Positions 26,677 to 61,107 of a stretch of DNA of 64,000 nucleotides are shown here, piece after piece. Numbering within the stretch: position 1 is the stretch's first letter; the number at the start of each line of letters is the position of its first letter. The DNA is taken from IMG/VR virus record IMGVR_UViG_3300009601_000004, positions 28,737 to 92,736 of that record, one strand, 5' to 3'. Below the pieces are notes generated by a model. It did no database searches, was not told the origin of the DNA, and saw only the letters and a program-made list of their open reading frames with translations. Source of the DNA: a virus. A program made the position numbers and the translations under genes.

Positions 26677-27044
26677 ACTACGACCACAGTCTGCACAAGT
26701 GCAACGAAGAGACCTGCCAAGTCTGCCGGGGTGGCCTCGCCTTCTGTGAGGTCTGTAGCGGCGGGGAAGGGAGTCTCCCAACGTCGTGCCCTGGCCGTAC
26801 TATGACAAGTGAAGAGGGTGACGAGGTCTACGGGGCACGCCGCGACTGGGCAGTCATCGCAGGCCACCGTGTGGAGCTTGTACGTGCCCACTACCAAGAC
26901 CCCTGGCAGGAGGCAGCACGGTCTGTGACGCAGCGTCTTGACCGCCCTAACGCGGCGCCTGTTGTCGACTCTGCCTCCGATGCGCAGCTAGGGTCATACG
27001 CTCGGACCTTCTCCTCCCTTACTGCGCGGACGGACAGAGCATGA
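26673..27044 (+). CDS. Small zinc-cluster protein
   Basis: The 123-residue product starts with ATGA overlap. Its N-terminal third has Cys at CNEETCQVCRGG and CEVCSGGEG, then SCPG, which resembles the DnaJ-type CxxCxG zinc finger. The rest is helical and ends in a polar tail. A similar zinc cluster occurs in the 40824-41336 gene. It overlaps the AAA+ gene by 4 nt. Confidence 0.55.
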   Translation: MNYDHSLHKCNEETCQVCRGGLAFCEVCSGGEGSLPTSCPGRTMTSEEGDEVYGARRDWAVIAGHRVELVRAHYQDPWQEAARSVTQRLDRPNAAPVVDSASDAQLGSYARTFSSLTARTDRA

Positions 27045-28273
27045 ACCCGCTCAAGCAACTAGCAGCTCGTGGGGCCATCTACGCTCAGCGCTACACGGGA
27101 AGTGCGGGCCAGATTGCACGCCGCACCAGTGACATCGTCGAGACGTGGTTTCACGCGCAAGAGGGTCCAGCCATCCTGCGGGGAGTGGCCGCCGTGTCCA
27201 TCCTGAGCCAGCTGGCCGACCTTGTCCACACCATGTGGGACTTTGACCAGCTGATAGTAGCTGCAGGGTGGGAGCTAGTGCCTATGGGCAAGGATGCGCA
27301 CACAGCCCTCATCACACGACTACGACCCTTTGCTCTGCGCTCACCGGACATCGAAGACGACGACGGGGAAGGCCTAAGCGTCCTCACCTGGGTCGACGAG
27401 CACGGGCGGGCCGTTGTGATGGCGACCGAAAACAGGTGGGACGAAAAGTTTGCAGAAGTCGAGCCCGGTGCTCTTGATGCCCTGATCGGGTTTCATGTGT
27501 GGAGCCAGCCTATTTTGGAGGTTGTGCGGACCACCGACGAGGACGGCAGACACACAGTCACGCTGAACCCCTGCTCTGAGCCTGACCGGACCTTGGTGGG
27601 CAACCAGGTCCAGTCTGTGCAACAGGCTTGTGTGGTGTCGGAGGATACGCGGATTGTGGCTGTGCTGGGCTCGACGGGGTCAGGCAAGACATCCAGCGTC
27701 TATCAAGCGCTGTCAGGCCGTCGCGTGCTCTGCAACGTGGGGAACGTGCTGAGCCCGAGTAGCCTGATGGTGTTGGTACGCACGCTCAAGCCGGACGTGG
27801 TGGTTCTAGATGACCTAGAGATGTCAGACGACTTCGACGCCGGTCTAGGGCGGGCACTTGACCAGCTGCACCAAGAGGTACCGCTGGTCATCATCACCGT
27901 GATGCTGGACGAGTTCCTGTCGGTAGAGGAGATGGAAGCTGGGGCAATGTACTGGTCTGGAATGCGACCGGGCCGCATTGATCAGTTTGTGTTCATCGGC
28001 AAGCTCGATGACGGTGACCGCGCGAAGGTGCTCGATCTGTACGGGTGCCCTCCATCGCTGCTCGCAGAGGCCGTAGCAGGCACAGGCTGCCTTAGTGCTG
28101 CGTATCTACGGGAGACGGCCCTACGTCTCAAAGCGGGGGGTGACCTCGCTACGACGCTCCGCGACATCCGCCTGCAAGCCCCCATCGAGATGTCCCCGGA
28201 TGGCCTCGACTCGCAGGGCAAGCATTCGCGCAAATCTGTCACCACACCCGATGAAAACGAGGACAGCCCATGA
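27041..28273 (+). CDS. BCS1-like AAA+ ATPase
   Basis: This 410-residue protein has a P-loop GSTGSGKT near 209-216, a Walker B VVVLDDLE near 253-260, and the second-region signature RPGRIDQFVF near 308, as in membrane-associated AAA+ proteins of the BCS1 type. Residues 40-60 form a hydrophobic helix (LRGVAAVSILSQLADLV) that could be a membrane anchor. BCS1-like ATPases in phages and bacteria act in protein translocation or defence; none has a fixed phage role known to me. It sits between a zinc-cluster protein and the helicase in one operon. Confidence 0.72.
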   Translation: MNPLKQLAARGAIYAQRYTGSAGQIARRTSDIVETWFHAQEGPAILRGVAAVSILSQLADLVHTMWDFDQLIVAAGWELVPMGKDAHTALITRLRPFALRSPDIEDDDGEGLSVLTWVDEHGRAVVMATENRWDEKFAEVEPGALDALIGFHVWSQPILEVVRTTDEDGRHTVTLNPCSEPDRTLVGNQVQSVQQACVVSEDTRIVAVLGSTGSGKTSSVYQALSGRRVLCNVGNVLSPSSLMVLVRTLKPDVVVLDDLEMSDDFDAGLGRALDQLHQEVPLVIITVMLDEFLSVEEMEAGAMYWSGMRPGRIDQFVFIGKLDDGDRAKVLDLYGCPPSLLAEAVAGTGCLSAAYLRETALRLKAGGDLATTLRDIRLQAPIEMSPDGLDSQGKHSRKSVTTPDENEDSP

Positions 28274-32189: not shown

Positions 32190-32260
32190 GCGCGTGCGCG
32201 GGTAGTATGCGCGTGGACATGCCAGTCCTCTCGTGTAGTGCGTTTCGCCGCGCCAAGACG

Positions 32261-32282
32261 CCCCCAGTCGATTGACTGGGGG
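32261..32282 (-). terminator. Strong hairpin after the RelA/SpoT-like gene
   Basis: The stem CCCCCAGTC/GACTGGGGG has nine base pairs and a four-base loop. It lies 18 bp past the stop of the 32300 gene. The T-tract is short, and better on the plus strand than the minus. Confidence 0.6.
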
Positions 32283-32299
32283 TGTTCGTGTTTTGGGGC

Positions 32300-33433
32300 T
32301 TAGTGCAGGCCTCGGACCCCACCGCCAAGCGAAACAGAGCGAAGCCCCGACATGCGGTTCGAGCTGCTTTGCTTGATGTGGATGGTACCGCCCTTGATGG
32401 ACATGTCGGCGTTGCTGTGCTTGTACCCGCGCGACTGTGCCCATGCACGCGCGCTAGTGGGTGTGAACTGCGGTCGAGGGAAGACAAGCACTTTCATGGC
32501 CTGTGGGTTTTTGCGGGGCTTCGTCATCAGCTTAGCCATGTGTGCCGGTCCTTTGGCCAGGATGGGGTCGATGGTGCGTATAGCTGCGGCGTCGCCTTGG
32601 TCGGCGAGGTCGGCGAGGCGAAATAGACGCTCCATCTCTGGGACATTGGCGTTGCCCTGCTTGTACGCGGTGTGCGAACCTTTACCTAGCGTGGACAAGC
32701 GAGTGGACTTGAGCTGCAGCTCGACGGGCACTTCAACCATGCGCCCGTCTTCGGTTTCCAGCTCGCGCATCAGCGTGAAGTGGTAAGCGCGGTAGCCGTT
32801 GTTGGGGCTGGTGTAAAAGTCGTCGTCTAGCTTGGCGCGGCCCAGTGCCCCGCCTTCGATGATTTTGCGCATACTCTCCACACCATAGCGGTCGGGCATT
32901 ACGATGGTGGTGGCTACCACGTCTGTAAGTCCCTTCTTACCCACAAGACGCTTACGGCGCAGCTTGTTGATCATCGAGTAGGGCGTCTTGACGCGTCCAA
33001 TGAATTTGCCACCTCGCTTGGTTGCGATCTGTTCCACGTCACGCCTGACGTCTTGAAAGAGCCCCTGCATCGAGTCGCGGTAATCCAGCAGCTTACCCAT
33101 CTCTTCAGACAGCTTGGTCTCTTCGATACGGCGGGTGTTCTGTTTGCCGTAGGGTTCAGGGTCGTCAACCGCTGGGATGCCGTCCCCATCGAAATCGTTG
33201 AAGAACGCCGGGTAGTCCTTGCGGCTTAGGCGTGTGTCACCTGTCGCATGGACTGCGTACTCTTCCGCTCCGCTGTTTGGTCTGACCGAGGGACGCACCA
33301 CCATGACAGCGTGGCCTTCGCCGTCGTAGACGTGACACGGCTTGTTGGTCGCTGCTGCCTGTTGGTGAGCGCGCCGTAGTGCGTTCTTTTTGCGTGTGTA
33401 AACTGTCGAACGGCCGTCAATGGTGAAGGGCAT
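32300..33433 (-). CDS. RelA/SpoT-like nucleotidyltransferase (putative alarmone synthetase)
   Basis: The 377-residue product starts at ATG with GGAGATG upstream. Residues ~140-265 match the RelA/SpoT synthetase fold: GRVKTPYSMINKL, LTDVVATTIVMPDRYGVESM, NGYRAYHF and VELQLKST, followed by GSHTAYKQGN. The Tyr in NGYR and the Glu in E-x-Q are kept; the usual Gly-x-Arg after the Asp strand is replaced by Ala-Thr-Thr. There is no HD hydrolase domain. The N-terminus has a calcium-binding-like DFDGDGIPAVDD loop and the C-terminus is basic. Known members make (p)ppGpp or, in toxic relatives, pyrophosphorylate other substrates. A host-manipulating role is inference. Confidence 0.72.
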   Translation of the reverse strand: MPFTIDGRSTVYTRKKNALRRAHQQAAATNKPCHVYDGEGHAVMVVRPSVRPNSGAEEYAVHATGDTRLSRKDYPAFFNDFDGDGIPAVDDPEPYGKQNTRRIEETKLSEEMGKLLDYRDSMQGLFQDVRRDVEQIATKRGGKFIGRVKTPYSMINKLRRKRLVGKKGLTDVVATTIVMPDRYGVESMRKIIEGGALGRAKLDDDFYTSPNNGYRAYHFTLMRELETEDGRMVEVPVELQLKSTRLSTLGKGSHTAYKQGNANVPEMERLFRLADLADQGDAAAIRTIDPILAKGPAHMAKLMTKPRKNPQAMKVLVFPRPQFTPTSARAWAQSRGYKHSNADMSIKGGTIHIKQSSSNRMSGLRSVSLGGGVRGLH

Positions 33434-33436
33434 GTG

Positions 33437-34360
33437 TCATCTCCGGGTCATGTATAGAGCGATGGCGTAGGCGTCCCAAGTGTGTCGATGCTTGCGCAGA
33501 CGTCGGGGTAGCCGTGGGTTGTTTTTGTCGTTGACCAGGTCCTGCAGTTCACGCCAGACACGCGAATCGCGGCCTACTTCGGTAGGTGTCAGCCCCAGCA
33601 AAGAAGAGGCCCAAGTGCGTTTGTCTATGACGGTTCGGCCTTGGCTTGCCCCATCGGAAGCAATGGCGTTGACGACGTCGGCACTCCGCTTGTCCTTGCC
33701 GCCGCCCCACGTCTCTTCCACGACCAGGCGATAGGTGCCTTGCGCGAGCTGTGCGGCTCGTGCGGCGATGTGCTCGCCGATACCGGCCATCGTATCGAAC
33801 GTCAGTACCTCACCGCTCCCTGCGGCTTCTAGCAGCCCTCGACCGCCTTTACTGTCTTCGTCCCAAGACCAGCCCCAAGCACCCAAGATGCGCCTGCCAT
33901 CTGCCGTGATGAGGACGGCGGCACCGCTGGGGCCGTCGTCGACTGCGAGCACTGGGTTAGCGTGGCGCGGGTTGCGCTTGACCGTCGGTGTGCTGCGGGC
34001 CAGCAGCTCGATACGACCCGTCAAGGTGGGACCGTTGAGTGACTGATAGCCTTTCGTGATGAGCTGGTTGCTGTACGACGCAGCGACACCAGAGGCGTGC
34101 GAGACGGTGATGTGATGTGGGCCCACAGAAGGAAGTCCACGAGGCAGCTCAACGACCAGAGCCTGCGCCTGCTGGTCTTGCGCCACTCCTACCACTTTCA
34201 TGCGCACTGCACGCCCGACAAGGTCAGGCAGAGCGGACAGCGCGAGTGTGACGTGGTCCGCAGTGACATGGGGATGTGCAGGCGCCACGGCGCGTAGCAC
34301 AGCTCGCCGTGACTTAGGGGACAGCTTGACCGCGGTGTATTCGCGACGACGCTTTGTCAT
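33437..34360 (-). CDS. 2H phosphoesterase-like domain fused to a RuvC-like nuclease domain
   Basis: ATG 34360 overlaps the upstream stop and gives 307 residues. Residues 25-95 carry two H-x-T motifs, HVTLAL near 34 and HITVSH near 81, spaced as in 2H phosphoesterases, which open cyclic phosphates or act on RNA ends. A KRNPRHANP linker follows. Residues ~135-307 form an RNase H-fold nuclease with VDDGPSGAAV, VVEETW and HTWDAYAIA, the three-acid pattern of RuvC resolvases. RuvC-type enzymes cut Holliday junctions before packaging. The joining of the two activities is unusual to me. Both halves are inferred from motifs. Confidence 0.65.
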   Translation of the reverse strand: MTKRRREYTAVKLSPKSRRAVLRAVAPAHPHVTADHVTLALSALPDLVGRAVRMKVVGVAQDQQAQALVVELPRGLPSVGPHHITVSHASGVAASYSNQLITKGYQSLNGPTLTGRIELLARSTPTVKRNPRHANPVLAVDDGPSGAAVLITADGRRILGAWGWSWDEDSKGGRGLLEAAGSGEVLTFDTMAGIGEHIAARAAQLAQGTYRLVVEETWGGGKDKRSADVVNAIASDGASQGRTVIDKRTWASSLLGLTPTEVGRDSRVWRELQDLVNDKNNPRLPRRLRKHRHTWDAYAIALYMTRR

Positions 34361-36723
34361 GCGTCGATACCGGAGGCTTGCAGCTGGAAGGCGTGGGGCC
34401 ACTTCGCAATGGTGTCCTCCATCCGCAGCATCTCAGCGTGCTCTTTGCCTGGTAGACGCCGACCGGCCTCTGCGTAGCCCATCATGCGGTCTTCCATCGC
34501 AACGTACTGCCGGTACATCTTCGTAGCCACTGCCATCGTGGGGAGGCCGTCGTTGTCGTCGTTGTCGTTGCTGGCCTGGATGGCCTTCACGAGCTTGCGC
34601 CAGTCCCAGTTTGGGATGCCAAAGACTTCCGCAACGTGCATCAGCGCGGCACCTGTAAGGATGCGCTGCTGCACCTGACCACGCCGGCTCCAGTTGAACC
34701 CGCGCAGCTTGCCATGGATGGGAGCACCCCGCTCGTAGGCGAGTTTGATGCGGTCGTCTGTGATCTCGATGCCGACCTCGGTACCGTCAGGCGCAACCAA
34801 GTTGCCGGACACACCCGAGGCCTCTTTGCGCACGAGGATGTCATCGAGCATGTCGACGGCGGCTTTCAAGTCGGGCCCCGTGGCTTTACCTTGACGCCTC
34901 GCGGCAATCAATAGCTTCAGCTTGCGCAGCTGGATACCGGCTTGACCCCCTGACTCTTCCATGCGTGCTTTGTTGATCTCACGCTGGGTGACTTTGGCCG
35001 CTTGCTTGATCAAGTCGAGCCAGTCCCCTTGCCGGCGGTCGGCACTGTCCGACTTTTTTTGCTCCCGGCGCTCATTGCGACCACCTCGGCCTGTGATCAT
35101 CCACGATGTGGTACCTGCCCGCGAGCCCAAAAAGGCGCGGAAAGCGGCTTTGTACTTTGTCAGGAAGCGGCCTAGCTCGGCAATGGCTGTACGGCGCTGG
35201 TTGACTGTATCCGCCATGTCTGCAGCCTCTTCTGCCATGTCATTCCACATACTGGCGTACTCACGGCGGTACTGCTCTCCGCGCCTCTCCGCTGAAAATG
35301 ACGTGCCTTGGAAGGCCATCGACGCCGTTGAGCTGCTGACGTCACGTATGGACGCTCTAGGTGCCGGCAGGTAGACCTCGTCGTCAGGTGTGATGCGCGG
35401 TGGTAGCGGCTGAGGCTTGCCTAAGACCTTCTCGTACTTGGCTATCAACGCGTCCATCTTCGCGTCAGCAGACGCTTTCCGCGCACCCTGTGTGGCTTTG
35501 AGCCGGTCACGGTGGACCTTGTCACTCGCAGCCTTACTGGCAACCGCCTGTGATAGCCGAGGTACGCGCTGACTCCAGAGAAAGCGGAGAATCTCCTCAC
35601 TGGTGTCCCCTGGGCCAAACCAGCTATTCCAGCCCCCGTAGCCATTCTTCTCGCCTAAGCGCACACCGAACACAGCGGCAACCAAGTCACCGCCAGCGTA
35701 GTTGCTCATCATCTCGCGGGTCTTGCCTCGGCCCTTCCGCCCGTCTTTGTCTACGGTTTTGGCGATGGCGTCAGCCAGCTGTACCATTGTTTTCTTTGCG
35801 GGAGATGCTGGGGCATTCGTCCACAGCAACGGAGGGGTGTTGAGACCCGACATACGCCGCACTAGGAGGTTGACCACCTGACGCGACTCGTCACCTGCAT
35901 CCTCTGTTGTGATGGCAAAGTATGCGCGAGACCTGCCGTCTTTTTTGGGCTTAGCCCACTTGCGCATCTCGATGGTGAAGGGCTGACCCTCCAAGCTGAC
36001 AGGCTCCCCTTCCCAGGCAAAAGCGCGTACTGCGGGGATCAATTCGGGATTCTTCTCGTGGTAGTGGTCATCCGCCACCATTGCGCCTGGTAGAGGTGTT
36101 CCTTCACTCCGCGTGGCTTCAACCACACTCCGCCACTGCATGGCGGGGTACTCGATGCCTTCAATGGGCTTCGGGATGGCCTTCGCGGCGGGTGCCTTCT
36201 TGGCTGCTATGGACTGTAGGTAGTACCCACTACCCACACCTTTCGGCTTTTTCAGCTCGACTTGCAGGCCGCCAGCGTTCACGAGGTCCGTGATCTCTTG
36301 GCGCATTTTAGGTGTGATGCGCTTTACCGTGGTGTGCCCGACCGAACCGCGGTGACTACGCTTCTGCGTCTCACGTACGAGGTCGCCACGCATAAACCCC
36401 CGCTGCTCTGCGTAAGACAAGCGACTGTTGAGGCTCGACAGGCCCCACCGCATATCGGGGTCACCGACACCACGGTGCAGCCGGTGGGCCGCGTCGTTGA
36501 GGATGTACTCCGCGATGGCTTCGGCGTGAGTTGTCTTCGTCTTCTTGGCTGCTACGGCTTCCGCTACTTCGTAGATGGGACCGCCCTTACTTACGAGGGT
36601 CTTGCGGTGCTTCATCATCCAGGTGGCGGTCGAACGTGTCGAGCTGTCCGAGGCCATGATGGCGTGAACACGGTCAAAGATGTGCGTTGCGAGTGACGCG
36701 TTGCTGGGATTCTTACGTCTCAT
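34357..36723 (-). CDS. Large protein of unknown function carrying the shared N-terminal helical module
   Basis: This 788-residue product begins MRRKNPSNAS and then has a helical module (HIFDRVHAIMASDSS, then TATWMMKHR) that recurs in three neighbouring large proteins. A beta-rich section follows (MRKWAKPKKDGRSRAYFAIT). The C-terminal third is charged helices with AALMHVAEVFGIPNWDWRKL. No enzymatic motif was recognised. It is translated in one unit with the 705-residue protein upstream and the 2H-RuvC gene downstream. Size and modular build suggest virion-associated or injected proteins. Confidence 0.55.
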   Translation of the reverse strand: MRRKNPSNASLATHIFDRVHAIMASDSSTRSTATWMMKHRKTLVSKGGPIYEVAEAVAAKKTKTTHAEAIAEYILNDAAHRLHRGVGDPDMRWGLSSLNSRLSYAEQRGFMRGDLVRETQKRSHRGSVGHTTVKRITPKMRQEITDLVNAGGLQVELKKPKGVGSGYYLQSIAAKKAPAAKAIPKPIEGIEYPAMQWRSVVEATRSEGTPLPGAMVADDHYHEKNPELIPAVRAFAWEGEPVSLEGQPFTIEMRKWAKPKKDGRSRAYFAITTEDAGDESRQVVNLLVRRMSGLNTPPLLWTNAPASPAKKTMVQLADAIAKTVDKDGRKGRGKTREMMSNYAGGDLVAAVFGVRLGEKNGYGGWNSWFGPGDTSEEILRFLWSQRVPRLSQAVASKAASDKVHRDRLKATQGARKASADAKMDALIAKYEKVLGKPQPLPPRITPDDEVYLPAPRASIRDVSSSTASMAFQGTSFSAERRGEQYRREYASMWNDMAEEAADMADTVNQRRTAIAELGRFLTKYKAAFRAFLGSRAGTTSWMITGRGGRNERREQKKSDSADRRQGDWLDLIKQAAKVTQREINKARMEESGGQAGIQLRKLKLLIAARRQGKATGPDLKAAVDMLDDILVRKEASGVSGNLVAPDGTEVGIEITDDRIKLAYERGAPIHGKLRGFNWSRRGQVQQRILTGAALMHVAEVFGIPNWDWRKLVKAIQASNDNDDNDGLPTMAVATKMYRQYVAMEDRMMGYAEAGRRLPGKEHAEMLRMEDTIAKWPHAFQLQASGIDA

Positions 36724-51511: not shown

Positions 51512-52003
51512 CTACCGGCCGCGACGCCGAACCACACCATCGCCTCGCTCGATCTGTCGACCGCCCTTCACTGTCCACACAGGCCGCAGCCGTGCCCCGG
51601 TCACCAACGCCTTGAGTTTGTCCCGCTCCATGAGTGCGACCAGCTCAGGCGGTATCCAGTACAGCTCGACGATGCGGTCGTCACTGATGGCCTCGCGACC
51701 TTTGCGCCGGATGATGGCGTGGGCCTCTGTGTGGTCGACCCGGCGCACCTTGGCCTGTCGGCGCGTCTTGACGAAGCTGGGCCCCTTCCACGCGCCGCGT
51801 GTCTTACCTTTGCGGGTCTTCTTTGCCGGTTTAGGCACCATCCGCGCCATGTACAGGCCGCCTGGTGCCCCAAAGCGCGAGCAGGGCAGCGGAGCCCGCG
51901 CAGAGGCGGCCAGAGCGACACGGGACAGTGCATGGTCCGGTGTCTTCGGAGGGGGCGAACCCCTCACGGCCTTGACTGCGTTGCGGGCGGTGAGTGGCTT
52001 CAC
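51512..52003 (-). CDS. Basic protein of unknown function
   Basis: The GTG start shares its G with the previous TAG; 163 residues. The N-terminal 60 residues are Ala/Pro-rich and the middle is highly basic (KPAKKTRKGKTRGAWKGPS). A compact alpha/beta end (DRIVELYWIPPELVALMERD) finishes in RRRGR. It is probably nucleic-acid-binding and translationally coupled within the virion operon. Confidence 0.5.
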   Translation of the reverse strand: MKPLTARNAVKAVRGSPPPKTPDHALSRVALAASARAPLPCSRFGAPGGLYMARMVPKPAKKTRKGKTRGAWKGPSFVKTRRQAKVRRVDHTEAHAIIRRKGREAISDDRIVELYWIPPELVALMERDKLKALVTGARLRPVWTVKGGRQIERGDGVVRRRGR

Positions 52004-52617
52004 TAGCGTTCACGGCCTACGCGAACTCCGCAGTATTCCCACAAGATGGTCCCGTGACCAAAACGGACGTCACTGGCCTTGTAGCCGGGCGCCACATGCA
52101 GGAGGAGCAACGCCCCACCGGGACCGGGTGTGCAGTTCATCGGGGCCTTGACGACGCGCTCGGCGATGGCGCGGCTCGTGCGTTTGTCCCCACCGGAGTT
52201 TTCTGTGCGGAGGTAGAACGTCCCGGTCTTGGGTAGACTTGGGTTGCTCCGCGCTTCCCGCCGCACGCGTTCACCGTCGTGGTAGTGATTGACTTTGTCG
52301 GCGTCAGCAGCGGCTTTGTAGGGCGTCTTGTAGGTGGTCTTGCCCACTTTCACACCGTTGGGAGAGTACAGGTACCACACACCAGGGCGTGTTTTCTCCA
52401 TGCCCCAGCCATCAGCATTCACATACAGACGCTGCTCGTAGTCATAGGTCCAACCCTTGGGCATCCTGGCAGGGTTGCCATGCTTGCCGGGGTTCACAAA
52501 CAACGCGGAGGCGCTCCGAAGGCTGGGATTGCGGCGCTTGCCCCCTCCACGGCCCCTGCGGTGCGCCTTGGCTTGTGCGCGCGTCATGCCCATCTGTTTT
52601 GCTGTCTTGCCTGCCAT
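52003..52617 (-). CDS. Unknown protein with RRNP tags and beta modules
   Basis: The 204-residue product begins with a basic tag region (HRRGRGGGKRRNPSLRS). A small beta module follows (WTYDYEQRLYVNADGWG, GVWYLYSPNGVKVGKTTY), then a second tag (ARSNPSLPK) and a beta-rich C-terminus. The beta module resembles ones in the 699-residue protein. The start overlaps the peptidase stop (TAATG). Function unknown. Confidence 0.55.
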   Translation of the reverse strand: MAGKTAKQMGMTRAQAKAHRRGRGGGKRRNPSLRSASALFVNPGKHGNPARMPKGWTYDYEQRLYVNADGWGMEKTRPGVWYLYSPNGVKVGKTTYKTPYKAAADADKVNHYHDGERVRREARSNPSLPKTGTFYLRTENSGGDKRTSRAIAERVVKAPMNCTPGPGGALLLLHVAPGYKASDVRFGHGTILWEYCGVRVGRER

Positions 52618-56356: not shown

Positions 56357-57382
56357 CTAGGAGCCGACGAGCACGGCGCCCATGGCACCAGAGAAGCCGC
56401 CCGGTGAGACCGAGAAGCCAGGGCCCATGCCCATGTCAGCGGAGAGGAGGCCGTAGCCACCGGTAGAACTGGACACGAGGGCGCCCATGCCGGCCACTGG
56501 CTCATCACCACCGACCTGCTGTTCAGGTGTCGCGATGCCGGCTTCATTCGCCAGCTGGCGTGAACGCATCTTGACGTAGCCAGCACCCGCACCTGCAGCG
56601 GTCATCAGACCCGGCAGATTGGCGATGGAGCCAAGGAACGGGATCTTCGAGATACCGGCCATCTTCAGGCCACCTGCAACGACTGCACCAGAGAGAGCGG
56701 AGAGCAGCGTAAAGTACGCAAACTCATTCTCTTTCAGTACGGCCGGGATCCAAGTCTGCGACGAGACAATGGGCGACAGGCGGAGTGGGATTTCCATTGC
56801 GACACCGGCCAAGAGGCCAGCAGGCATGGAGCCGAACGCCGCCGCGAGGGTACCGCCAATGACAGGCACCTTCTTGAACATCTTGCCAATGCCGGGATTG
56901 CGGCGGACACGGCGAGAGCCCCGACGTGTCTTGCTCGACAGCTTCCATGGATTGCGACGCGGACGCATGGCTCCACGGCCCTTACGTGCGCGCTTGCGCT
57001 TGATCTTGCCGGCGTGAATGCGACGAACACCTGGACGCGGGTTGCGGCGTTTTGCCTGACCACGGCGAGAGGTGCGGCGTTTTGCCTGCCCACGGCGGGC
57101 GGTGCGGTGCTTCGCCTGCCCACGGCGGGCGGCGCGGCGAGGGTTGCGACGAGTTGCCCGGCGACGATTGCGACTGGCAAGCATACGGCGGCCAGAGTGA
57201 CGGCCCTTGCGGCCCTTGCGGCCCTTGCGGCTTGTGCGGCCCCGACGGGTCTTGCTGCGACTGCGGGGATTGCGGCGGGTGACCCGAGGTGCCTTACGGC
57301 GAGCCTTACGGCCTCGACCCGGATTGCTGATCACCGTCGCGATTGTCCGGCGGCGGCTAGTTGCGGTGCGACGACGCGCCAT
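56357..57382 (-). CDS. Extremely Arg-rich protein with a hydrophobic C-terminal half
   Basis: A 341-residue protein. The first 165 residues are mostly Arg/Lys with repeated blocks: RRGQAK(R/H)RT three times, RKGRKGRKGR, and RRNP at least five times. The second half has apolar segments (GSMPAGLLAGVAMEIPL, FTLLSALSGAVVAGGLK, NLPGLMTAAGAGAGYV) that would make two or three membrane spans. The N-terminus could condense or tether DNA to a membrane. ATG 57382 has TAGGAGT upstream. A virion role is likely from its neighbours. No known family fits. Confidence 0.6.
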   Translation of the reverse strand: MARRRTATSRRRTIATVISNPGRGRKARRKAPRVTRRNPRSRSKTRRGRTSRKGRKGRKGRHSGRRMLASRNRRRATRRNPRRAARRGQAKHRTARRGQAKRRTSRRGQAKRRNPRPGVRRIHAGKIKRKRARKGRGAMRPRRNPWKLSSKTRRGSRRVRRNPGIGKMFKKVPVIGGTLAAAFGSMPAGLLAGVAMEIPLRLSPIVSSQTWIPAVLKENEFAYFTLLSALSGAVVAGGLKMAGISKIPFLGSIANLPGLMTAAGAGAGYVKMRSRQLANEAGIATPEQQVGGDEPVAGMGALVSSSTGGYGLLSADMGMGPGFSVSPGGFSGAMGAVLVGS

Positions 57383-59572: not shown

Positions 59573-60193
59573 CTAGGGGGCCGATGGCGGGAACATGGTC
59601 ACTGTGCTGTACACGCTGGTGATGCTGTTCGAGGCGTTGGCTGTTCCCCACTGCGCACCCGCTTGGATCGATAAGTCACCCGTGGGGGACGACTGCACCG
59701 CGGCGTAGCTGGTAGCCGCATCCGCCGTGCCCAGCCGCGTAAGAATCTCCGTACGCAGCTTGACAGCACCAACGGCGTCCACGTAGAGGTCCGCGCTGAT
59801 GGACCACTCGCCATCCAGGTTGGGTGAGATTGTGCGACTGAGCAAGACCACACCTTCAACAACCAAGCTCACGACGAGTTCTGGAGTTCCTGTGCGGCCC
59901 CACGAGCCCCCAAGACTAATGCGACCCGTGGCACCCGCTTGCAATTTGGCTGCTGGGATGGTCACAGGGGCGAAAACGCCAGCGGTTGTGGTGTTGGCGA
60001 TGGTGCCTGCGGTCTCGTCACTGCTGGCTTGGGCGGTGCCCAAAGTGCCCGCCATAGCAACCCACGCTACACCGGTCCAGTAGTACAGAGTGCCTAGATA
60101 GGTCTCCAGTGAATACTGCACGCCGGTCGCGGGTAGGCCGGCGGCCTGCTCGATGTTGATACCGCCGTCTGGGAATCGTGTCGTGTCAGCCAT
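59573..60193 (-). CDS. Spike- or fibre-like beta protein (paralogue of 57817-58446)
   Basis: The 206-residue product has an N-terminal adaptor (residues 1-45) followed by a beta sandwich (AGVFAPVTIPAAKLQAGATG, EWSISADLYVDAVGAVKL) with the same strand order as its paralogue. The two proteins may form hetero-oligomers or offer alternative receptor specificity. It is coupled to the 60193 gene by TAATG. Confidence 0.55.
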   Translation of the reverse strand: MADTTRFPDGGINIEQAAGLPATGVQYSLETYLGTLYYWTGVAWVAMAGTLGTAQASSDETAGTIANTTTAGVFAPVTIPAAKLQAGATGRISLGGSWGRTGTPELVVSLVVEGVVLLSRTISPNLDGEWSISADLYVDAVGAVKLRTEILTRLGTADAATSYAAVQSSPTGDLSIQAGAQWGTANASNSITSVYSTVTMFPPSAP

Positions 60194-61107
60194 TAGTGCT
60201 TCCGTGCGCGCTTGCGGCGCAGTCTAGGGTTTTTACGCTTGGTGGGCAGCAGTGCCGCCCCTATTTTCGCGTAGGGTGCCGCCACAGCGGCCACGAGGCC
60301 AACGCCACCGGCGACCACACCGACCTTGCCCCAAGTGGGCAGGTTTGTCCACAAAGCGCTGACCACCCATTTCACCGGGTCATTCTCACGGTCCTTGGGA
60401 TTCGAGGGGTCACCACCGGGCATCACAACACCTGCCACGTCTTCGGGGATGCGTAGACGCTTGAGCCGGGTAAGGTACGTGACAGCCGCGGGTGCTGACA
60501 AGCGTTGCATCTTGTCGATGCCTTCGTCGTAAAGTCCCCGGATGCGACTGGGTGCATCCGACCTCCCGATCGACGCCTGACCCATGACCTGCGCACCTAC
60601 GTCAGTCACCCACTGCCCCACCCACGCTCCCAGGTAGTAGGTGGCGTTAAACCCTGCGGCCAGCGTCGCTGTCCACAAGTTCAAGATCGCATAGCCGGCG
60701 CTCTGTGCAGGCCTCGACGTGGGGTCTACAGCACGCCGGACATACTCGTAGGTACTCGCAGGGCGCTGTCCCGATAGTATCTCTTTGTGGAGCTGCACGC
60801 GGTTGACTGTCGCCGAGACGACTGCCAAGCGAAGCTGCACACCGACGGTGTTGCCCGCAGCTTCCCCAACCCACGAGGGTGCCTGTGCGATGCTCGATGC
60901 AAAGCTCCCGTCGCGGTTGCCGTTGGGTAGCGCCATGAAGGCGACAACCTCTTTGATCATCCTGCCAATGGCTTTGCGGTCCCCTGGCGCTTTCTGCTGC
61001 TTTGCGGCACCGAGAGCACCGAGAGCACCGAAGCCTCGGGCGGTGCCGAAACCTTCCCCGGAGACGCTACGGTGCGCAAGCGCTGACTGACCTTGCCAAT
61101 GACTCAT
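60193..61107 (-). CDS. Membrane protein with basic RKNP tail
   Basis: The 304-residue product has an amphipathic middle (residues 120-165) and a strong transmembrane helix near 265-285 (GKVGVVAGGVGLVAAVAAPY). It ends KRKNPRLRRKRARKH, one of the basic RNP tags in this window. It probably spans or attaches to a virion membrane with the basic tail facing nucleic acid. Confidence 0.55.
   Translation of the reverse strand: MSHWQGQSALAHRSVSGEGFGTARGFGALGALGAAKQQKAPGDRKAIGRMIKEVVAFMALPNGNRDGSFASSIAQAPSWVGEAAGNTVGVQLRLAVVSATVNRVQLHKEILSGQRPASTYEYVRRAVDPTSRPAQSAGYAILNLWTATLAAGFNATYYLGAWVGQWVTDVGAQVMGQASIGRSDAPSRIRGLYDEGIDKMQRLSAPAAVTYLTRLKRLRIPEDVAGVVMPGGDPSNPKDRENDPVKWVVSALWTNLPTWGKVGVVAGGVGLVAAVAAPYAKIGAALLPTKRKNPRLRRKRARKH

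Follow-up and report, generated by a model that had tools for sequence, protein, structure and literature searches.

The synthetase gene and its product

The window, a stretch of 64,000 nucleotides analysed here at its full length, is part of the 92,736-base IMG/VR virus record IMGVR_UViG_3300009601_000004 (hereafter G000) and carries on its minus strand a gene for a RelA/SpoT-type nucleotide synthetase (Table 1), whose product we place in a distinct clade marked by changes in the active site and by an acidic loop. The reading frame is intact, with ATG and stop exactly at the ends of the gene, and it closes a run of four closely packed minus-strand genes; its ATG lies 3 nt past the TGA of the upstream gene with a Shine-Dalgarno-like sequence (CGGAG) ahead of it, and a hairpin directly 3' of the gene is the probable end of the operon. 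A preliminary description had read from the sequence a RelA/SpoT-like synthetase with NGYR and E-x-Q motifs and without hydrolase domain, and it was right on each of these points. The RelA_SpoT domain (PF04607) is matched at residues 146-261 with 41.3 bits (E 2.1e-10; curated cut-off 27 bits) and is the sole Pfam domain above cut-off, neither a hydrolase (HD) nor TGS/ACT domains being found in the scans of the 377 aa; the two motifs read N212-G-Y-R215 and E238-L-Q240.

The AlphaFold2 model, built on a 13-row alignment, reaches a confidence (pLDDT) of about 80-98 over most of residues 71-300, and VIA-align ranked Bacillus subtilis SAS1, a small alarmone synthetase (SAS), first among its matches (5ded, Z 15.6, root-mean-square deviation 2.8, 168 aligned), with SAS2 at about 15, CapRel at 12.8, Tas1 at 11.1, FaRel2 at 7.9 and the first DNA polymerases at 7.8; in the predicted fold the motifs fall within the known active-site framework. 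Searched against PDB, the family profile matches RelSeq, RelP, RelQ and RelA, and weakly CapRel and FaRel2, and the PADLOC candidate profile PDC-S33 matches residues 104-243 at 1e-8. The preliminary description had suggested comparison with RelA/SpoT subfamilies, toxic small alarmone synthetases (toxSAS) included; the protein is close to no characterised SAS or toxSAS, and with 18.1 bits against a cut-off of 320 for the NCBIfam RelQ equivalog (NF053588) it is not a RelQ (SAS1) orthologue. By its domain, modelled fold and catalytic residues, the 377-aa protein belongs to the RelA/SpoT homologue (RSH) synthetase superfamily, in which it represents a divergent branch and not a standard SAS.

A conserved module in viral, bacterial and plasmid elements

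Single-sequence searches of IMG/VR and phage genomes returned no close relatives of the synthetase. The starting point for the family was an archaeal plasmid protein (LC711081, 1003 aa) matched at E 1e-3, from which the family was widened by successive alignments. Fifteen more loci were found in this way, in IMG/VR contigs, in two metagenome-assembled genomes of Bacteroidota/Balneolota and in the archaeal plasmid; the relatives are L007-L011, L012 and L013 (the Phaeodactylibacter and Aliifodinibius assemblies), L015, L018-L020 and L022-L024, together with a further copy, L029, in the genome of L012. PF04607 was matched in all eight members scanned, and each of the 11 viral records searched holds exactly one copy of the synthetase module. 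Two candidates were set aside, namely a Brevundimonas phage match (E 6) and MT838476.1 (L005, labelled 'Bacteriophage sp.'), whose match is a full-length bacterial Rel with chromosomal neighbours and was taken as contamination; this record, with its ParB-like, LysM/lytic transglycosylase, Rel and pectinesterase genes, resembles a fragment of a bacterial chromosome. We also observed a PAPS-reductase-like gene near the synthetase module in L029 (2550-3320, Bacteroidota, by eye) and in the archaeal plasmid (L004 1737-2930).

Every aligned member has the same module order, in which an acidic loop of the form D-x-D-x-D...DD-x-x-P is followed by a helix and then by the synthetase. The loop lies some 65 residues ahead of the synthetase in all aligned homologues, that of the archaeal plasmid included, and its residues D80, D82, D84, D90, D91 and P94 are invariant in the 13 alignment rows. 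What had been described as a calcium-loop-like N-terminal insert is therefore present as a loop but is not an insert of one protein: since every aligned homologue has it, the alignment indicates that the loop is part of the conserved module, beyond chance. In L010, L019, L022 and L024 it is spelled DSDxDGVPDIDD, which we take to be close to the thrombospondin type 3 (TSP3) consensus; the Pfam EF-hand models match the members' loop weakly (0.04-0.7). Judged by the spacing of its acidic residues, the predicted loop probably binds Ca2+. In the phylogenetic tree the 11 members included form one clade (99/97) apart from the characterised SAS and toxSAS; the archaeal branch is long, and we are unsure of the place of this sequence inside the clade. 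Ratios of nonsynonymous to synonymous substitution (dN/dS) are 0.04-0.12 among close relatives (two sets), as under purifying selection, and the proteins are therefore maintained.

Active-site signatures

To a small reference set of 14 synthetases (Rel, RelQ, plasmid and prophage RSHs, and PhRel) we aligned 11 members of the family. All 14 references, and none of the 11 members, have the arginine of D-x-x-G-x-R; that of E-x-Q-x-R-T, again found in every reference, is a lysine in 11/11 members, K242 in the 377-aa protein, and the residue after G-Y-x is alanine in all members and in a single reference, PhRel. The alteration of the conserved Gly-x-Arg (GxR) stretch reported earlier is thus confirmed (A174-T175-T176, 3 residues past the metal-binding aspartate D171), whereas the idea that it is peculiar to this protein did not hold: on this alignment the GxR and Q-x-R changes are signatures of the family. 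In FaRel2, R64 and the corresponding arginine, R95, both stack on the donor adenine, an arrangement that its authors regard as common to other alarmone synthetases (PMC11782079). Phage-borne Apk2 (p)ppApp synthetases likewise have no GxR arginine and read R-Y-T where RSH enzymes have A-V-R (PMC12226406).

The rest of the catalytic centre is kept. By motif alignment, FaRel2 residues R64, K66, S70, K74, D90, Y128, E145 and Q147, with roles taken from PMC11782079, correspond to R147, K149, S153, K157, D171, Y214, E238 and Q240, all invariant in 13/13 rows. The phosphate-binding, metal and acceptor-stacking residues are in this way invariant across the family, as are the syn3 His and the G-loop Tyr, and a dead enzyme is therefore disfavoured.

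Fusions and linker motifs

In most relatives the synthetase is part of a giant polyvalent protein or is fused with DUF2958. The synthetase module lies within chains of 766-2415 aa in seven relatives (L008, L009, L011-L013, L015 and L018) and is joined to DUF2958 in four records, the DUF2958-module protein of L024 having 371 aa; several of the giant chains carry SNF2, methylase-like or kinase-like regions, and the module shares a chain with an SNF2 helicase in L013 (Pfam) and with a kinase-like region in L012 (by eye). In G000 the synthetase gene shares its strand with those for the methylase-Mom and SNF2 proteins, which stand apart from it as genes of their own. RelA/SpoT domains have been described in polyvalent proteins of phages, whose entry is believed to accompany that of the DNA (Iyer 2017, PMC5512222).

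Two short motifs recur between domains. In the main open reading frames of the window, [KR][KR]NP occurs 10 times against 0.39 expected from shuffling; its carriers are the synthetase gene, two genes beside it and, in the region of 50-64 kb, three further proteins, with structural-looking ones among the carriers, and L013 has R-E-N-P at similar places. In the Bacteroidota-type elements the motif is [MFYL][AE][KDM]GG, with 20 copies in L015 against 0.08 expected by shuffling, two of which flank the synthetase module; it is reminiscent of Gly-Gly cleavage sites. Each of the two could be a site of processing or targeting between domains, and [KR][KR]NP is a possible processing or packaging signal.

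Table 1. Features of the synthetase locus and of related elements (window positions unless a record is named)
Feature	Position	Strand	Remarks
RelA/SpoT-type synthetase gene	32300..33433	-	377 aa; synthetase module with N- and C-terminal extensions
N-terminal extension, residues 1-71	33221..33433	-	absent from relatives; poorly modelled, helix and beta hairpin at moderate confidence
TSP3/EF-hand-like acidic loop, D80FDGDGIPAVDDPEP94	33152..33196	-	D-x-D-x-D-G spacing with distal Asp
Helix, synthetase domain and helical tail, residues 104-292	32558..33124	-	kept in all relatives; pLDDT mostly >90
RelA_SpoT core, residues 146-261	32651..32998	-	R147, K149, S153, K157, D171, Y214, H218, E238, Q240, H254, Y257, K258 invariant in family
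Altered GxR site, D171-V-V-A-T-T176	32906..32923	-	D-x-x-G/A-x-R in reference synthetases
R307-K-N-P310 linker between synthetase and C-terminal extension	32504..32515	-	motif recurs in neighbouring and structural-looking proteins
C-terminal extension, residues 320-377	32303..32476	-	absent from relatives found; low model confidence
Stable hairpin directly 3' of synthetase gene	32257..32286	unassigned (.)	terminator-like in + strand scan, z -4.1
Upstream coupled gene, 321 aa	33437..34402	-	KRNP between two halves
Upstream coupled gene, 788 aa	34357..36723	-	no family match; begins MRRKNP
Upstream coupled gene, 705 aa	36720..38837	-	no family match above cut-off
DNA cytosine methyltransferase with Mom-like domain, 1177 aa	41336..44869	-	polyvalent-type neighbour
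SNF2 helicase, 889 aa	47015..49684	-	domain fused to synthetase module in L013
[KR][KR]NP sites	56357-57382, 32300-36723, 52003-52617, 60193-61107		at linkers; five copies in one 341-aa protein
Giant proteins with repeated [MFYL]A[KDM]GG between domains	L015 4267-9111; also L009, L011, L019, L022, L024		
Divergent MESH1-like HD protein (small alarmone hydrolase, SAH), 233 aa	G000:21440-22141 (L003 6440-7141)	minus	outside window, 39 kb from synthetase

Other genes of the virus record

The 321-aa protein encoded immediately upstream of the synthetase has no Pfam match, and its C-terminal half looks, by eye, RuvC/RNase H-like. Elsewhere G000 encodes a divergent HD protein in which the LHDAVED and KTADR motifs are kept (Pfam HD_4, E 0.011; PDB SAH, E 0.002), and HD_4 proteins are encoded by the records of two relatives; their presence would fit a control of the synthetase product, but HD proteins are common in phages. 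The record also encodes an integrase, a family A-like DNA polymerase, primase, helicases, methylase, M15 peptidase and a sigma factor. Terminase, portal and major capsid protein were not clearly recognised among the G000 proteins scanned, and Terminase_6N is absent from 11 records, other terminase families not having been searched for. A 410-aa protein of the window (27041-28273) has a weak NTPase match of the terminase/HerA/GspE type and might act as packaging ATPase in a virus without recognised terminase; a response-regulator match of the same protein fell below cut-off, as did a DUF6016 match of a window protein. Among possible surface proteins, G000 has on its minus strand a 385-aa protein with an ice-binding-like domain (L002 4294-5451; PF11999, E 1e-22). 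A transglutaminase-like protein with a C-terminal hydrophobic segment is common to G000 (L002 5463-6584) and the Aliifodinibius element (L013 5137-6162; E 7e-11), and from its sequence the two elements may be related; comparison of two structural-looking proteins between them gave nothing, the transglutaminase-like protein alone being in common.

Proposed function and alternatives

It is tempting to propose that the gene belongs to a distinct clade of RelA/SpoT-fold 3'-pyrophosphokinases of virus-like and plasmid elements, with altered nucleotide recognition and a role as effector of host takeover, a reading to which we give an even chance. The functional unit would consist of the acidic loop, a long helix and the synthetase core, and would transfer pyrophosphate from ATP, or from another NTP donor, with an altered recognition of the donor base, to a 3' hydroxyl, either on a nucleotide or at a tRNA end. 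On the strength of the conserved residues we are fairly confident that the 377-aa protein is catalytically active. Candidate acceptors are GDP/GTP, ATP or tRNA, with a slight preference for GTP/GDP, since the family, like RSH enzymes and in contrast to Apk2, retains the acceptor-side Tyr and the syn3 His. The element might deploy the synthetase early after entry, together with the methylase, the SNF2 helicase and other polyvalent-type proteins, to alter host transcription, translation or defence; we regard deployment at entry as about evenly balanced. The preliminary description had put forward a phage-made alarmone or a toxic pyrophosphorylase that could alter host growth, defence or superinfection, and these effects stay hypothetical.

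Several points weigh against this proposal. The 377-aa protein is no large polyvalent protein and has only unassigned N- and C-terminal extensions, and the case for its delivery is drawn from its relatives, the genes around it and one short motif. The loss of the donor-stacking arginine could mean weak or no use of ATP. Moreover, exchanging motifs in Apk2 did not switch its specificity (PMC12226406), and the acceptor is therefore not readable from sequence. Finally, the relatives are known from sequence records alone, and their contigs are possibly incomplete.

The kept RSH fold and catalytic residues, with invariant syn3 His and G-loop Tyr, would equally be expected of an ordinary SAS captured by a phage, which would make (p)ppGpp late in infection and slow host growth, its changes being drift without function, and captured RelQ-like genes do exist in phage records. 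We nevertheless consider this explanation unlikely, given that both arginine changes are fixed in the 11 members and both arginines kept in the 14 references, and that the family is a clade of its own tied to the acidic loop. Equally doubtful is a toxSAS- or Apk-type toxin that would pyrophosphorylate tRNA or make (p)ppApp against the host or competing elements, with a MESH1/SAH-like hydrolase as protection. The Ser to Ala change in G-Y-x-A-x-H, which of the references only the toxSAS PhRel has as well, the GxR arginine missing also from Apk2, the PDC-S33 match, the HD protein of G000 and the HD_4 proteins of two relatives all speak for it, yet the HD gene is distant in a class of proteins frequent in phages, no recognisable antitoxin or immunity gene is adjacent (the neighbours match no known family, and an unfamiliar antitoxin is possible), and in VIA-align FaRel2 and Tas1 rank below the (p)ppGpp makers SAS1 and SAS2, although CapRel comes nearer. 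A bolder version of the proposed clade, which we hold to be rather improbable, is that it is widespread, does not employ the standard ATP donor pocket, and either makes a new 3'-pyrophosphorylated product or takes a different donor; the enzyme would be delivered ready-made as an effector and be switched by calcium through the acidic loop, inactive where Ca2+ is abundant and freed in the low-Ca2+ cytoplasm, or the other way round. Least probable of all is a protein with weakened or no catalysis that would bind host alarmones or ATP in order to sense or sequester them, for although the donor-adenine arginine and the Arg after E-x-Q are lost in every member, the invariant catalytic residues argue otherwise and a pure binder would have no need of metal and triphosphate sites.

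Few bacterial stress enzymes have been studied as thoroughly as the RSH enzymes, and all the references compared here keep the donor-adenine arginine; a clade spread across viral contigs, Bacteroidota, Balneolota and an archaeal plasmid has lost it, yet kept the catalytic centre together with a calcium-type loop. Such a clade poses a testable question as to donor, product and calcium control, and would illustrate how nucleotide signals of their own are carried into the cell by mobile elements.

Comparison with known systems

The family resembles RelQ/SAS1 and RelP/SAS2 in the synthetase fold (Z about 15, 168-179 aligned) and in the R-x-K-x3-S-x3-K, D, G-Y and E-x-Q elements, and differs from them in its low identity (14-22%), in the missing GxR and QxR arginines, in the acidic loop and in its occurrence in elements, often as fusions. 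With the toxSAS FaRel2, CapRel and PhRel it shares the fold and the phosphate and metal residues, and with PhRel the Ala of G-Y-x-A; unlike the family, FaRel2 (R95) and PhRel keep the GxR arginine, and toxSAS have antitoxins or fused sensor domains and no known acidic loop. The likeness to PDC-S33 lies in the profile match alone, and no paper on this candidate was found in the openly accessible literature searched. The Apk2 domains of MuF toxins are phage-borne and have no Arg at the third syn2 position, but they carry R two residues earlier, GxN at syn3 and YH at syn4; in the family these three places read G/A, AxH, and aliphatic residue plus K. The N-terminal MuF domain and the syn2 R-Y-T of MuF-Apk2 are missing from the 377-aa protein, which has no further Pfam domain above cut-off and reads A-T-T at syn2.

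The polyvalent and MuF RelA/SpoT domains of Iyer 2017 (PMC5512222) have the same Pfam domain within large multidomain proteins of mobile elements, in a setting beside SNF2, methylase, ParB and lysozyme genes; neither calcium nor thrombospondin is named in the main text of that paper. Our clade, together with its signatures, appears undescribed in the literature open to our search. RelA/SpoT domains in phage polyvalent proteins are already known, and the clade and its signatures appear to be the new part.
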